The position numbers and the translations under genes are program-made. From assembly GCA_945878525.1 (NCBI GenBank), contig CAMCTU010000008.1, positions 1 to 41,169 of the forward strand: 41,169 bases of DNA. Reading direction: 5' to 3'. Below are positions 12,342-40,286 of the stretch, in pieces. The notes under the pieces were generated by a model, which was not told the DNA's origin, searched no databases, and saw only the letters and a program-made list of their open reading frames with translations. Source of the stretch: Sphingobacterium thalpophilum (lineage in GTDB: Bacteria > Bacteroidota > Bacteroidia > Sphingobacteriales > Sphingobacteriaceae). Position 1 is the first letter of the stretch, and each line of letters starts with the position of its first letter.

Positions 12342-12827
12342 CTACTTCTTCATCTCCCCCTTAATACTCAAATCCAGCTCCGCTTGCCGGTGTGTTCCGA
12401 TGATATAATTTAATCCGTCGCGGTCCGTAAGCTTGACAGCATCCTTACCCCCGGCATAAAAATGAATCGTTCCTTTTTGATGAAGATTATAAACTGGGTT
12501 ATTGATGATATATGAACTATAGGGAACAGACTCTACTTTAACAATACTATTCAAGTCTATCTTAACCATTTTGGTAGTCCATATTCCGTTAAGAACTATA
12601 CTCTTATTATTTACAGTGGTTTTGTAATGAAGTACAAACATCATGATAACTGAACCAATAAGGATTCCGAAACCAACTACCAGAAATAGCTCTGCGTTCT
12701 GACCCTGACTTCCGGAAAGGTAGTAAGCCCCAAAACAAAATAAAGCCAATACTATTCGGATACTGATCCGACCGTAATCACGACCCAGATATTGTTTTTC
12801 TATGAAAGCTTTTTGGTTTCCCTCCAT
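12342..12827 (-). CDS. Two-helix membrane protein with a PH-like C-terminal domain
   Basis: 161 residues. Two closely spaced membrane segments (IVLALFCFGAYYLSG and LFLVVGFGILIGSVIMMFV) are followed by a cytoplasmic beta-rich domain (KTTVNNKSIVLNGIW, VKIDLNSIVKVE, IHFYAGGKDAVKL) that resembles bacterial PH-type domains. The gene starts one base after the tilS stop, so it is translated from the tilS transcript. No signal peptide or catalytic motif. Function unknown. Confidence 0.65.
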   Translation of the reverse strand: MEGNQKAFIEKQYLGRDYGRISIRIVLALFCFGAYYLSGSQGQNAELFLVVGFGILIGSVIMMFVLHYKTTVNNKSIVLNGIWTTKMVKIDLNSIVKVESVPYSSYIINNPVYNLHQKGTIHFYAGGKDAVKLTDRDGLNYIIGTHRQAELDLSIKGEMKK

Positions 12828-12828
12828 T

Positions 12829-14166
12829 TTAGATGATTTGTTCTAAGATAAAAACTTTTTTTGTGTTGGGACTAATTTTATAGCGCTCATCAATTCTTAA
12901 ACCGGCGACCCATAAAATATCACCATTATTGTTTTCAAGGATCCCAATATCTTTTTTATGGTTCAGACTGATTTTCCTGTCAACAAATAAGTCGCTAAGC
13001 TTCTTCTTTTGATTTAATCCTAGAGGTAGAAAATAATCTCCATTTTTCCAGCTTCTTAATTTAAGTGGAAAGCTGAGCAGATCAAAGTCAAGCTGGGCAA
13101 TATTCTCATCCATTCTTAATGCAAACTGACCGATAGGAACAGTTTTACTACCATATTTTTGCTCGTTCCAGGTATAAATCGCTGAAAGGGAATCAAGTAA
13201 AGTCTCTTCGTAACTAGGCTCTTTAATGGGACTTAAAATTATACACCTGCGGTCAATCAGCAACTGATGTCTTAAAGAATGAAATATTTTTCCAGGATTA
13301 CCATCCCAGGAATGGCTAAGATCATTGAGCACAGATTCTGTAAATCCGTAAGGATTAAACAATCCGTAAAGCAATGTATTTAAGGGATTCAATTTCTTCA
13401 GTTCGGCAATACTGATCTCAAATTCATCTTTTGTAAGCTTTTTAAACAGGCGCTCTTTTATTTCCTGAACCTGAAGATCAAGTAAGATCTCCAATTCTGC
13501 AAAACGCCTTCTGTTTGCTTCAAAGGTTTGCTCCAAGGCCGGATTGAGCTCTTTAAGAACAGGGATTACTTCTAAACGAAGTTTGTTTCTGGTGTATTTA
13601 ACGGATAGGTTTGAGCTGTCTTCCCGGTATTTATAATCATTCTTTTGAACCAATTCATCTATCTCATCTCTGTTTAAAAACAAAAGCGGGCGGATAAGCT
13701 TACCTTTTTTTGGTAAAATACCATGCAATCCTGAAATACCGGTCCCGCGGGTTAAGTTGAGTAGCATAGTTTCAATCACATCATTTTGATGATGGGCTAC
13801 AGCTGTGTATTGATAGTTAAATTCATTCCTGATTTTTTCTAACCAGTTGTAGCGCAAATCCCTTGCAGCCATTTGAATGGAAATATGATTTTCACTAGCA
13901 TATTCACTGGTTTCAAAGCAGCAAGTATAAAACGGGACTGCAAGTCCTTCAGCAAGCCCCTCTGTGAAGCGCTCATCCAGTTCCGATTCGTCTGCGCGAA
14001 GATTAAAGTTGCAATGAGCAATGCCGAAACTATAGCCTGCAGCTTTGAACAAATATGCCATCAATACAGAATCACGACCCCCACTAACTGCGAGCAAGAC
14101 AGACTCTCCCTCATGAAAAAGGGCATGCTGTTTGATGAATGATTCTAGTCGGCTTAGGGCTTCCAT
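12829..14166 (-). CDS. tilS: tRNA(Ile)-lysidine synthase
   Basis: 445 residues. The N-terminal ATP-pyrophosphatase loop SGGRDS (28-33) and the family segments IAHCNFNLR, AARDLRYNWL, AVAHHQNDVIETMLLNLTRG and GISGLHGI identify TilS. This enzyme ligates lysine to C34 of the CAU-anticodon tRNA(Ile), converting it from an AUG to an AUA reader; it is essential in most bacteria. The C-terminal third contains the TilS C-domain (RSWKNGDYFLPLGL, KLSDLFVDRKI). A box TAATTTTG (14172-14179) lies five bases before the ATG. It is divergent from the OstA-like gene, with only 53 bases between the starts. Confidence 0.93.
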   Translation of the reverse strand: MEALSRLESFIKQHALFHEGESVLLAVSGGRDSVLMAYLFKAAGYSFGIAHCNFNLRADESELDERFTEGLAEGLAVPFYTCCFETSEYASENHISIQMAARDLRYNWLEKIRNEFNYQYTAVAHHQNDVIETMLLNLTRGTGISGLHGILPKKGKLIRPLLFLNRDEIDELVQKNDYKYREDSSNLSVKYTRNKLRLEVIPVLKELNPALEQTFEANRRRFAELEILLDLQVQEIKERLFKKLTKDEFEISIAELKKLNPLNTLLYGLFNPYGFTESVLNDLSHSWDGNPGKIFHSLRHQLLIDRRCIILSPIKEPSYEETLLDSLSAIYTWNEQKYGSKTVPIGQFALRMDENIAQLDFDLLSFPLKLRSWKNGDYFLPLGLNQKKKLSDLFVDRKISLNHKKDIGILENNNGDILWVAGLRIDERYKISPNTKKVFILEQII

Positions 14167-14171
14167 ATGCT

Positions 14172-14179
14172 CAAAATTA
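14172..14179 (-). promoter_or_regulatory. -7 promoter box of tilS
   Basis: TAATTTTG on the minus strand matches the Bacteroidota -7 consensus TAnnTTTG. Only five bases separate it from the tilS ATG, so the mRNA would begin at or next to the start codon. No -33 TTTG was found at a usual distance. Confidence 0.55.
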
Positions 14180-14207
14180 TTTAATTAAAAAACCTTAGCC
14201 AAAAAAC

Positions 14208-14215
14208 TATTTTTG
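14208..14215 (+). promoter_or_regulatory. -7 promoter box of the OstA-like gene
   Basis: TATTTTTG matches TAnnTTTG and lies four bases before the GTG start at 14220. With the usual distance from box to transcription start, the mRNA would have essentially no leader. Confidence 0.55.
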
Positions 14216-14219
14216 TAAG

Positions 14220-16226
14220 GTGAAAAAAGTAATATTTTCAGTTCTGTTTTCAATACTATCGGTCGCAGCGTTTGCTCAAGGGCGACAGATTGAGATCAGA
14301 TCATCCGAATTAGTCAAAGGTTTTCAGTCTTTCGGGTTTGCGCGAATAATCCGTCCCGTGTTTGTTCACGAAGGGTCAACTCTCGCATCCGATAGTGCTG
14401 ATTTTAATCAGGCAGCAAACACTTTTGAGGCATTTGGTCATGTTGTAATCACTCAGCCTTCCGGAACCGTCATCTATTCTGATCATTTAAACTACGATGG
14501 AAATACCAAACTTGCAGTCCTGACCAACAAGGTAAGATTAATTGATGGGGATGCGACCTTAACCACCGATCATTTAACCTATAACATGACCACCAAGATT
14601 GGAACTTATACTGGCGGGGGTAAGATTGTGAATGGTAAAAATGTGCTGACCAGTAAAAATGGATATTACTTTGAGACTTCAAGAGATTCATATTTCAGGT
14701 ATGATGTAGTACTTACCACACCTGAAGCATTGATCAAAACCGATACACTCAAATATAATTCAACTTCTAAAATTGCTTATTTCTATGGGCCTACAAATAT
14801 TTATGGCAAAGATGATACGCTTTACACTGAGAACGGAAATTATAATACCCAAAGTGACCAGGCCCGGTTTGGTAAGAAAAACCTGTATACTCAGGGAAGT
14901 AAGTCATTGACAGGTGATAGTCTTCTCTACGATCGTAAAGCAGGTTATGGAAGGGCGATTGGGAATGTGATCTTTATTGATACAGCTGAAAAGGCCCAGC
15001 TTAGGGGAGGGATAGGACTTTATCAAAAGGCTGAAGAAAGTATTCTTGTAACAATAAATCCATATGTTGTAATCATTTCTGAATCGGATTCTGCAAAAGT
15101 GGATTCCATCTGGATGACCGCTGATACCCTGTTCAGCAAAGTGATTTTTACGCGTGACCTTGTTCCTTACAAGAAGGAAGAAATGATTCCAGACGATCAG
15201 CTTGCTGCCATAGAAGAGCCGGTTGCAGTGTCTCAGGAAGTTGCTTATGATCCTGCAAGTACACGGGCCGCAATCATTACGGATAAAATTGTGGAAGCCT
15301 CTGATACACTTAAAACTTCGGTTATAACAAAAGAACCTGATAAGCTGATTCCGCCGAAGGATAAAGAAATACCAATCGTAAAACCTGAAAAGAAGCCCCC
15401 TTCTAAATCAAAAACTAACAAGGATATAAAATCTCCTGATGAAAAGGGTAAATCAGATAGCCTGAAGACTTCGAGATTACCTACTGATTCAATCTCTGCC
15501 GACACTTCAAAGACCAGAATAATTTTAGCCTATCATCATGCCAAAATATTCAAATCGGATTTGCAGGCCAGGGCAGATTCTATGTTTTTTAGTTATTCTG
15601 ATTCAACTGTCAGATGTTATGTAAACCCAATGATCTGGGCCCAGGGCTCCCAGCTTTCAGGGGATACAATTTATCTGCAGATGAAGAATAAGAAAATGGA
15701 TAATATGCTGTTACAGCACGATAGTTTTATAGTTAATACAGAAGATGCCGATTCAACCAATTTTAATCAAATAAAAGGAAAAGTGATTAATGGCTATTTC
15801 AAGGATAATAAACTGAGCAGCATGTTTGTGGATGGAAATGCAGAAAGTGTTTATTATGTGAAGGAGGATTCTTCATATACCGGTTTGAATCATTTAGTCA
15901 GTGGCCGGCTAAAGATTTTGTTAGACGATAATAAACTCCAGAGTATAACTGCAATTCGTTCGATTGATGCCTCCATTACGCCGATGGAAAATCTCAAGGA
16001 GGAAGAAAGGGTTTTAGAGGGATTTATTTGGAAACCAAAAGATCGACCAAAATCAAAAGAAGAAATTATCCCTAAGTTTGTAAAAAAAGAGGGAAAATTG
16101 GGACCGGTAAAAAAAACCCCTGAAAAAGCACCGGTTAAGTCATCAGAAAAGAAAAACACTACTGAAAAAGCGAAAAATACAATAGTAACTAAGCCTAAAG
16201 TTCCATCACCAATAAAGCAGAATTAA
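14220..16226 (+). CDS. OstA-like (LptA/LptD N-terminal-like) protein
   Basis: 668 residues with a GTG start and signal peptide (KKVIFSVLFSILSVAAFAQ). Residues about 25-330 contain repeated OstA beta-jellyroll motifs (DSADFNQAANTFEAFGHV, YSDHLNYDGNTKLAVL, LTTDHLTYNMTTKIGTYTG, SLTGDSLLYDRKAGYGRAIG), the fold of LptA and the LptD N-terminal domain, which form the periplasmic bridge for lipopolysaccharide transport. A second OstA-like stretch follows (about 440-600). Lys/Pro/Ser-rich linkers lie at about 385-425 and in the last 70 residues. It is much longer than LptA and lacks the LptD barrel; Bacteroidota commonly have such a protein. The only Met-like start is the GTG. It overlaps the convergent rdgB by four bases. 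Confidence 0.82.
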   Translation: MKKVIFSVLFSILSVAAFAQGRQIEIRSSELVKGFQSFGFARIIRPVFVHEGSTLASDSADFNQAANTFEAFGHVVITQPSGTVIYSDHLNYDGNTKLAVLTNKVRLIDGDATLTTDHLTYNMTTKIGTYTGGGKIVNGKNVLTSKNGYYFETSRDSYFRYDVVLTTPEALIKTDTLKYNSTSKIAYFYGPTNIYGKDDTLYTENGNYNTQSDQARFGKKNLYTQGSKSLTGDSLLYDRKAGYGRAIGNVIFIDTAEKAQLRGGIGLYQKAEESILVTINPYVVIISESDSAKVDSIWMTADTLFSKVIFTRDLVPYKKEEMIPDDQLAAIEEPVAVSQEVAYDPASTRAAIITDKIVEASDTLKTSVITKEPDKLIPPKDKEIPIVKPEKKPPSKSKTNKDIKSPDEKGKSDSLKTSRLPTDSISADTSKTRIILAYHHAKIFKSDLQARADSMFFSYSDSTVRCYVNPMIWAQGSQLSGDTIYLQMKNKKMDNMLLQHDSFIVNTEDADSTNFNQIKGKVINGYFKDNKLSSMFVDGNAESVYYVKEDSSYTGLNHLVSGRLKILLDDNKLQSITAIRSIDASITPMENLKEEERVLEGFIWKPKDRPKSKEEIIPKFVKKEGKLGPVKKTPEKAPVKSSEKKNTTEKAKNTIVTKPKVPSPIKQN

Positions 16227-22942: not shown

Positions 22943-22950
22943 CAAACTTA
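22943..22950 (-). promoter_or_regulatory. -7 promoter box of cysS
   Basis: TAAGTTTG on the minus strand, separated from the cysS ATG by CAGC. Start-codon choice is firm because the protein N-terminus matches the family, so the short spacing is not caused by a wrong start. Confidence 0.6.
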
Positions 22951-37779: not shown

Positions 37780-37809
37780 TTGATACTTAGTACGAAAAAT
37801 GTATTTTTG
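37780..37809 (+). promoter_or_regulatory. Promoter of the TPR protein-ribH unit
   Basis: The most complete Bacteroidota promoter in the window: TTG (37780-37782), 19 bases, then TATTTTTG (37802-37809). It shows that the start at 37854 is right and the TTG at 37815 is in the leader. Confidence 0.7.
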
Positions 37810-37853
37810 CGGAATTGGATTTAGTGAAACGGTTTACAACTTTTTATATACAA

Positions 37854-38534
37854 ATGTCAAAAGATCAAAAAGATAACGTAACAGAAACTGATAATCAGTT
37901 AGGGAACACGAGCAAATTTGTTCAGGAAAATGCAAAAAGCCTAGCCGTTATTGGTGCAGCTATCATTGCTTTGGTGCTATTATACTTTGGTTACCAAAAC
38001 TTCTACCTGGCGCCCCGGGCTGAAAAAGCAGCCAACGAGATGTTTAAGGCAGAAGAATATGTAGCAATAGATTCTCTGAAAGACAGAGCAATTAAGGGTG
38101 ATGGCTCATATCCCGGATTCGAAAAAATAGCTGGTGAATATTCCAGTACTAAATCTGCGAATTTGGCTAATGCTTACCTTGGAGGTCTTTACCTTCAGAA
38201 AGGTGAGTATCAAAAAGCTGTTGATGCTCTTGGGAAATATAGCAGCACCGGTAGCCCGGTAATTGATCCTTTAGTACTAGGAATGCTTGGGGATGCTTAT
38301 AGTGAATTAAAGGAGTATAGCAAAGCCATTACTTTCTACAAGAAAGCTGCTGACAAAAATAAGAATACCTTTACGAGTCCGCTTTTTCTAAAAAAGCTGG
38401 GATTGGTTTACGAGGAACAAAAAGAATTCAAATCAGCGGTTGAAACTTACAAGAAAATCAAAACCGATTATCCGGAAAGTGTAGAGGCTGCCTCAGTGGA
38501 TGCCTATATCGCACGGTCTGAAGCAAAATTATAG
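37854..38534 (+). CDS. Membrane-anchored tetratricopeptide-repeat protein
   Basis: 226 residues from the ATG at 37854. A polar N-terminus is followed by one membrane helix (SLAVIGAAIIALVLLYFGY, about 29-47) and a soluble part with TPR-like helices (LANAYLGGLYLQKGEYQKA, LGMLGDAYSELKEYSKA, LKKLGLVYEEQKEFKSA). The arrangement is that of YfgM-type proteins, which associate with the secretion machinery in other bacteria; here that role is inference. It precedes ribH by 63 bases on one transcript. Confidence 0.82.
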   Translation: MSKDQKDNVTETDNQLGNTSKFVQENAKSLAVIGAAIIALVLLYFGYQNFYLAPRAEKAANEMFKAEEYVAIDSLKDRAIKGDGSYPGFEKIAGEYSSTKSANLANAYLGGLYLQKGEYQKAVDALGKYSSTGSPVIDPLVLGMLGDAYSELKEYSKAITFYKKAADKNKNTFTSPLFLKKLGLVYEEQKEFKSAVETYKKIKTDYPESVEAASVDAYIARSEAKL

Positions 38535-40278: not shown

Positions 40279-40286
40279 TACTTTTG
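40279..40286 (+). promoter_or_regulatory. -7 promoter box of lipA
   Basis: TACTTTTG ends four bases before the ATG of lipA, which predicts an mRNA that starts at or next to the start codon. Confidence 0.55.

Follow-up and report, generated by a model that had tools for sequence, protein, structure and literature searches.

Bacteroidota do without Shine-Dalgarno pairing, and their mode of start codon choice is an open question. The conserved promoter bases of Flavobacterium johnsoniae are T-12, A-11, T-8 to T-6 and G-5, TAHHTTTG and the transcript start are 4 or 5 nt apart in probable promoters, and in the mapped promoters the -33 element is weak or absent (PMC6847099). The box of F. psychrophilum lies at -12 to -5, and 5.5% of the mapped mRNAs of this species form a leaderless minority (PMC9723704). 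Leaders of 10 nt or less are found in 13% of cases in F. johnsoniae (PMC6847099). In B. thetaiotaomicron, 3.7% of mRNAs have leaders under 10 nt. Measurements thus put leaderless mRNAs in a small minority. The locus described here, from DNA recorded as Sphingobacterium thalpophilum, combines the same box with the same short distance on both sides of a divergent gene pair, tilS (for a tRNA-modification enzyme) and an ostA-like gene (for an LPS-transport-like protein), the latter starting with GTG.

The tilS/ostA intergenic region

The features of the locus are collected in Table 1, with positions in the window, the whole 41,169-nt stretch of DNA that was analysed. The tilS ATG and the ostA GTG are separated by 53 nt. 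An earlier note on this DNA had placed TAATTTTG five bases before the former and TATTTTTG four bases before the latter, and the boxes, the codons and both gaps proved correct. Neither box has a G at either H position of TAHHTTTG, which classes both as -7 elements of the Bacteroidota sigma-A (sigma-ABfr) type. The -33-like TTTG of the tilS promoter reads CAAA on the plus strand and overlaps the A-tract upstream of ostA. On the ostA side there is no TTG near -33, and an A-tract is all that precedes the box. Only weak structure is computed for the first 45 nt of the two predicted mRNAs (-3.1 and -0.4 kcal/mol).

Table 1 Features of the tilS/ostA locus (window positions).
Feature	Position	Strand	Remarks
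161-aa ORF	12342..12827	-	one base downstream of tilS, same strand
tilS, tRNA(Ile)-lysidine synthetase, 445 aa	12829..14166	-	ATG at 14166; PF01171 6.6e-44, TIGR02432 3.8e-47
tilS ATG	14164..14166	-	predicted mRNA +1 (or +2)
tilS -7 box TAATTTTG	14172..14179	-	5 nt (AGCAT) 5' of ATG; kept in relatives
TTTG, -33-like, tilS promoter	14200..14203	-	20 nt upstream of tilS -7 box; present in compact relative loci
A-tract AAAAAA upstream of ostA box	14201..14206	+	present in most relatives
ostA -7 box TATTTTTG	14208..14215	+	4 nt (TAAG) 5' of GTG
ostA GTG start codon	14220..14222	+	predicted +1 of leaderless mRNA; invariant across family
ostA-like gene, OstA_2/LptA-like, 668 aa	14220..16226	+	signal-peptide-like N-terminus

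The identity of both proteins is supported by several domain matches: PF01171, PF11734, TIGR02432 and TIGR02433 for TilS, covering its PP-loop ATPase and its C-terminal domain, and PF13100 (1.9e-48, above cut-off) and PF03968 (LptD_N, 2.1e-9) for the OstA_2/LptA-like protein. The ostA frame opens after a TAG at 14196-14198, and the GTG at 14220 is its sole ATG, GTG or TTG before codon 47, the next start-like codon being the GTG at 14358; a complete signal-peptide-like N-terminus, VKKVIFSVLFSILSVAAFAQ, is encoded from it. The next Met of TilS is residue 36, past the SGGRDS ATP-binding loop. The annotated starts are therefore secure, and the claim of the earlier note that neither protein has a usable downstream Met near its N-terminus holds; many relatives likewise have no alternative ostA start codon. 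The 161-aa ORF, for which no Pfam match was found, is probably on one transcript with tilS. On the other side, the ostA-like gene is convergent with a Ham1-family gene, the end of which overlaps the ostA stop codon.

Since gaps of 5 and 4 nt are those found between box and transcript start in Flavobacterium, both mRNAs should be leaderless. By this rule, which comes from another family, the tilS mRNA would begin at the ATG or one base earlier, and that of ostA at the G of the GTG.

Conservation of the arrangement in Sphingobacteriaceae

A scan by OstA protein similarity yielded 80 loci, labelled Daejeonella, Pedobacter, Mucilaginibacter, Arcticibacter, Olivibacter, Parapedobacter and others, all Sphingobacteriaceae by name or kinship, and 79 of them have a readable ostA start. 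Judged from its nearest relatives, the DNA analysed here belongs to Daejeonella. This start was located as the GTG following the box, with ATG, GTG and TTG weighed alike; GTG alone occurred at the right spacing. In all genus and family relatives examined, tilS and ostA are divergent. All 79 readable loci, which as relatives are not independent observations, have an ostA gene starting with GTG either 4 nt (48 loci) or 5 nt (31 loci) after a TAnnTTTG box, if the five in which the box ends in TTTA are included. The tilS ATG is found 3-5 nt after a box in 72 of 76 loci, this close box being missing in the remaining four (L185, L187, L193 and L239). The length of the intergenic region varies from about 51 to more than 200 nt across relatives, with both gaps unchanged. 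The A-tract is also kept, with an A at 68-73 of the 77 aligned loci for each position from -19 to -15. As it is also present in wide-spacing loci (L198, L185), where tilS sits further off, the A-tract belongs to the ostA promoter.

Pattern searches in genera beyond these gave the same GTG at ostA in genomes of g4, g7, g14, g175 and g176 and in one g17 genome. An ATG start was seen at ostA in none of the genomes whose ostA start was recovered, a set that excludes most g17 genomes as well as g5 and g8. ATG matches after similar boxes in g14 were considered as exceptions to the GTG. In the two of these genomes that were tested (G459 and G468) they were rejected, ostA being located on another contig; in both, as in G190 (also g14), the ostA GTG follows TTTG by 4 nt. 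Among the matches listed for the strict pattern, none from other families of the class was linked to ostA. The arrangement is in all likelihood ancestral and selected in Sphingobacteriaceae and not a local accident, and this forms part of the explanation that we favour.

The invariant GTG of ostA

An A/G transition is all that separates ATG from GTG, and both serve as starts, so that the first base would be expected to drift as a synonymous purine does, or to reach A. On a tree built from the first 320 codons of ostA in 78 sequences, all of which have the GTG, its G changed 0 times. Over the same segment, 16 two-fold purine-synonymous sites underwent 4-21 changes each (mean 13.9), and none was invariant. 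Published rates of start switching in close genome triples are 4.0% for GUG to AUG versus 0.6% for AUG to GUG, the former being 6-7 times more frequent, and AUG is favoured more in low-GC genomes (PMC5622118). The genome studied here has a GC content of 38%. Taken together, this points to selection holding the G of the ostA GTG, with synonymous purine sites, and not further GUG starts, as the yardstick for the size of the effect. That choice of control leaves some room for retention of the GTG by descent or mutational inertia, in which no selection would act on the G: a start codon amounts to one site only, and all the sequences are explained by one GTG in their ancestor. The matched sites of the same alignment and the published bias towards AUG both argue against it in a genome this rich in AT, and we consider it unlikely.

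The bases next to the GTG were also compared. The following base (window 14223, +) is an A in 77 of the 77 aligned loci (GTGA), and GTGC was found only in g14 genomes. Translational coupling through GTGA, as an overlapping stop and start, was dropped as an explanation, since no upstream ORF with its own start codon proved to be conserved. Of the 30 gap-5 loci, 26 have a pyrimidine just before the GTG, compared to 18 of the 47 gap-4 loci. This difference is what would follow from polymerase starting on the G at both gaps, though it is confounded by phylogeny.

Spacing of boxes and start codons across the genome

Genes were called with a simple home-made hexamer model, blind to promoters, which gave 1805 genes on 2.22 of 3.07 Mb (window included). 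TAHHTTTG lies 4-5 nt upstream of 29 called ATG starts, against 2.2 expected from column shuffles (largest of 200: 6), so that the comparison of this spacing with chance, put forward in the earlier note, turned out positive. The tilS gene is one of the 29; ostA lies outside them because the caller placed its start too late. For gaps of 3, 4, 5 and 6 nt, the called ATG starts have 6, 20, 9 and 6 matches, respectively, compared to one in all for gaps 0-2 and 24 for gaps 7-15. A second peak, with 78 matches at gaps 16-25, represents leadered genes and is the largest box class of the genome; beyond gap 25 each gap has 2.1 matches on average. With permuted motifs there is about 1 match per gap. A strict box lies 3-79 nt upstream of 244 ATG genes; it is 4-5 nt away in 29 of them (12%) and 3-6 nt away in 41 (17%). 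When the count at gaps 4-5 was made free of called starts, 32 ATG codons were in frame versus 3 out of frame, and 3 GTG codons versus 1.

The peak at gaps 4-5 being apart from the leadered one, leaderless promoters, as predicted from box gaps, are a distinct and ordinary minor class in this genome. This histogram and the conservation over the family both favour the proposal of the earlier note that the tilS and ostA mRNAs begin at their start codons, which is still a prediction. Its remark that a leaderless GTG start is rare is true of E. coli but not of bacteria generally, and in this genome GTG is about equally frequent among short-gap starts and among all starts. The plausible GTG genes with box gaps of 3-5 nt are ostA, gpmI and nth, the last two (gpmI: C2; L005:5496, +; gap 4; nth: C32; L067:6253, -; gap 3) being apparent further leaderless GTG genes.

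Of 193 divergent pairs, 4 have a strict -7 box 3-6 nt before each of the two starts, compared to 0.6 predicted from how often this occurs at divergent heads; besides tilS/ostA, these pairs are C2 12837/12926, C2 66362/66513 and C85 1919/2016. Within the window, short gaps were also observed for a cysS-like gene (22938, -), with TAAGTTTG at 22943-22950, 4 nt before the ATG, and for a lipoyl-synthase-like gene (40291, +), with TACTTTTG at 40279-40286, 4 nt before the ATG. At 37802-37854 (+), a TPR-protein ORF has a TTG 5 nt after TATTTTTG; it was set aside as probably not leaderless, the in-frame ATG at 37854 being a more natural start.

The size of the class at 16-25 nt, together with the leaders carried by the majority of mapped Bacteroidota mRNAs (medians 24-32 nt), raises the question of whether the tilS and ostA promoters are real but their transcripts start further off, or from extra promoters upstream, the closeness of the boxes to the codons being incidental. 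No strict box is found at leadered distance upstream of either gene within the window, and a start further upstream would cross the promoter of the other gene, antisense to its 5' end. Over the whole range of intergenic lengths, moreover, the family keeps the 4-5 nt gap. Five loci (L178, L179, L180, L182 and L210) have an in-frame ATG that follows the box by 1 nt and is the codon preceding the GTG. This ATG would be usable in a leadered mRNA, yet the GTG is retained, and it would precede the predicted +1 of a leaderless one. Leadered mRNAs are therefore quite improbable at this locus.

The conservation pattern around ostA could also be read as the binding site of a regulator overlapping the -7 box and the start codon; the G would then be retained because a protein binds there, and not on account of initiation. 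Near-fixation indeed extends to the A-tract (-19 to -15), the box, the GTG and the A behind it. The spacer at -4 to -1, however, varies freely and is 4 or 5 nt long, which is awkward for one continuous operator, and the conserved parts are those of a promoter and a codon; we regard this explanation as very improbable. That two boxes fell near starts by chance, AT-rich intergenic DNA often containing TAnnTTTG, would agree with the motif being common in the window without enrichment (42 found, 56 expected). Chance can nevertheless practically be dismissed, since the non-random feature is the spacing to the start codon and not the abundance of the motif, with the genome-wide excess given above, and conservation over the family already refutes it.

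Proposed model

The most probable explanation, in which we have considerable confidence, is that two sigma-A promoters give rise to leaderless tilS and ostA mRNAs, and that at ostA both the spacing and the GUG with its +1 G are under selection. The 53 nt would hold two back-to-back housekeeping promoters of the TAnnTTTG type, from which RNA polymerase would start on, or within one base of, the two start codons, and the resulting mRNAs (AUG for tilS, GUG for ostA) would be translated by recognition of a 5'-terminal start codon. At ostA, selection would keep the GUG, the 4-5 nt distance to the box and the nearby A-tract, the spacer bases being allowed to drift; the G may be retained for damped translation or for GTP as first nucleotide. 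As the tilS -33-like TTTG overlaps the A-tract on the ostA side and is 4 nt away from the ostA -7 box, the polymerases of the two promoters probably compete in compact loci.

More tentatively, the leaderless GUG of ostA might itself be a conserved regulatory element in which the +1 G is selected, although the odds are somewhat against this. If so, the first transcribed base would also be the first base of the start codon, which would be the reason why selection keeps it. Initiation with GTP could then make ostA transcription depend on the GTP pool; alternatively, the weakness of GUG could keep ostA translation low and sensitive to initiation factors or to 70S levels; the divergent tilS mRNA, starting with A and AUG, would escape control of this type. 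A conserved pair of predicted leaderless genes with one side locked on GUG offers a natural system for testing the acceptance of a 5'-terminal GUG by Bacteroidota ribosomes, and for asking whether selection acts jointly on the first transcribed base and on the start codon. In practical terms, a box followed by 4-5 nt provides a simple rule for correcting start codon annotation in these genomes.

Comparison with known leaderless systems

Translation of leaderless mRNAs in mycobacteria requires a 5' ATG or GTG and nothing more (Shell et al. 2015, PMC4633059), which makes a GUG at +1 biochemically workable. Mycobacteria are however Actinobacteria with another promoter consensus, and ATG and GTG are interchangeable in their leaderless mRNAs (PMC4633059), whereas ostA has GTG only. 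In E. coli a leaderless GTG is under 10% active (figure quoted in PMC4633059), and the GTG found at ostA in each of the 79 loci sets it apart from the E. coli type of leaderless mRNA, with its 5'-terminal AUG. Whether Bacteroidota ribosomes behave on a 5'-terminal GUG in the mycobacterial or the E. coli manner was not found in the literature searched. The -10 motif adjoining ORFs in Deinococcus-Thermus (PMC12340547; TA-led genes, PMC3160421) likewise lies at a fixed short distance and defines a genome-wide class, for which a GTG example, pprI, has been described (PMC12340547; PMC3160421). It concerns about a third of the genes there, with TANNNT as motif, compared to about 12% of boxed ATG genes and TAHHTTTG here. 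There is also a close likeness with the sigma-A leaderless genes of Bacteroidota (PMC9723704, PMC6847099), which share the TAnnTTTG box, the 4-5 nt to the start and the status of a minority class. The tilS/ostA pair differs from the mapped Flavobacterium genes in being predicted from sequence, in having both sides of a divergent pair leaderless by that prediction, and in an ostA side that starts with a GTG fixed in a family. Leaderless genes are thus already known in Bacteroidota, and the unusual part is the predicted leaderless GUG, fixed family-wide.
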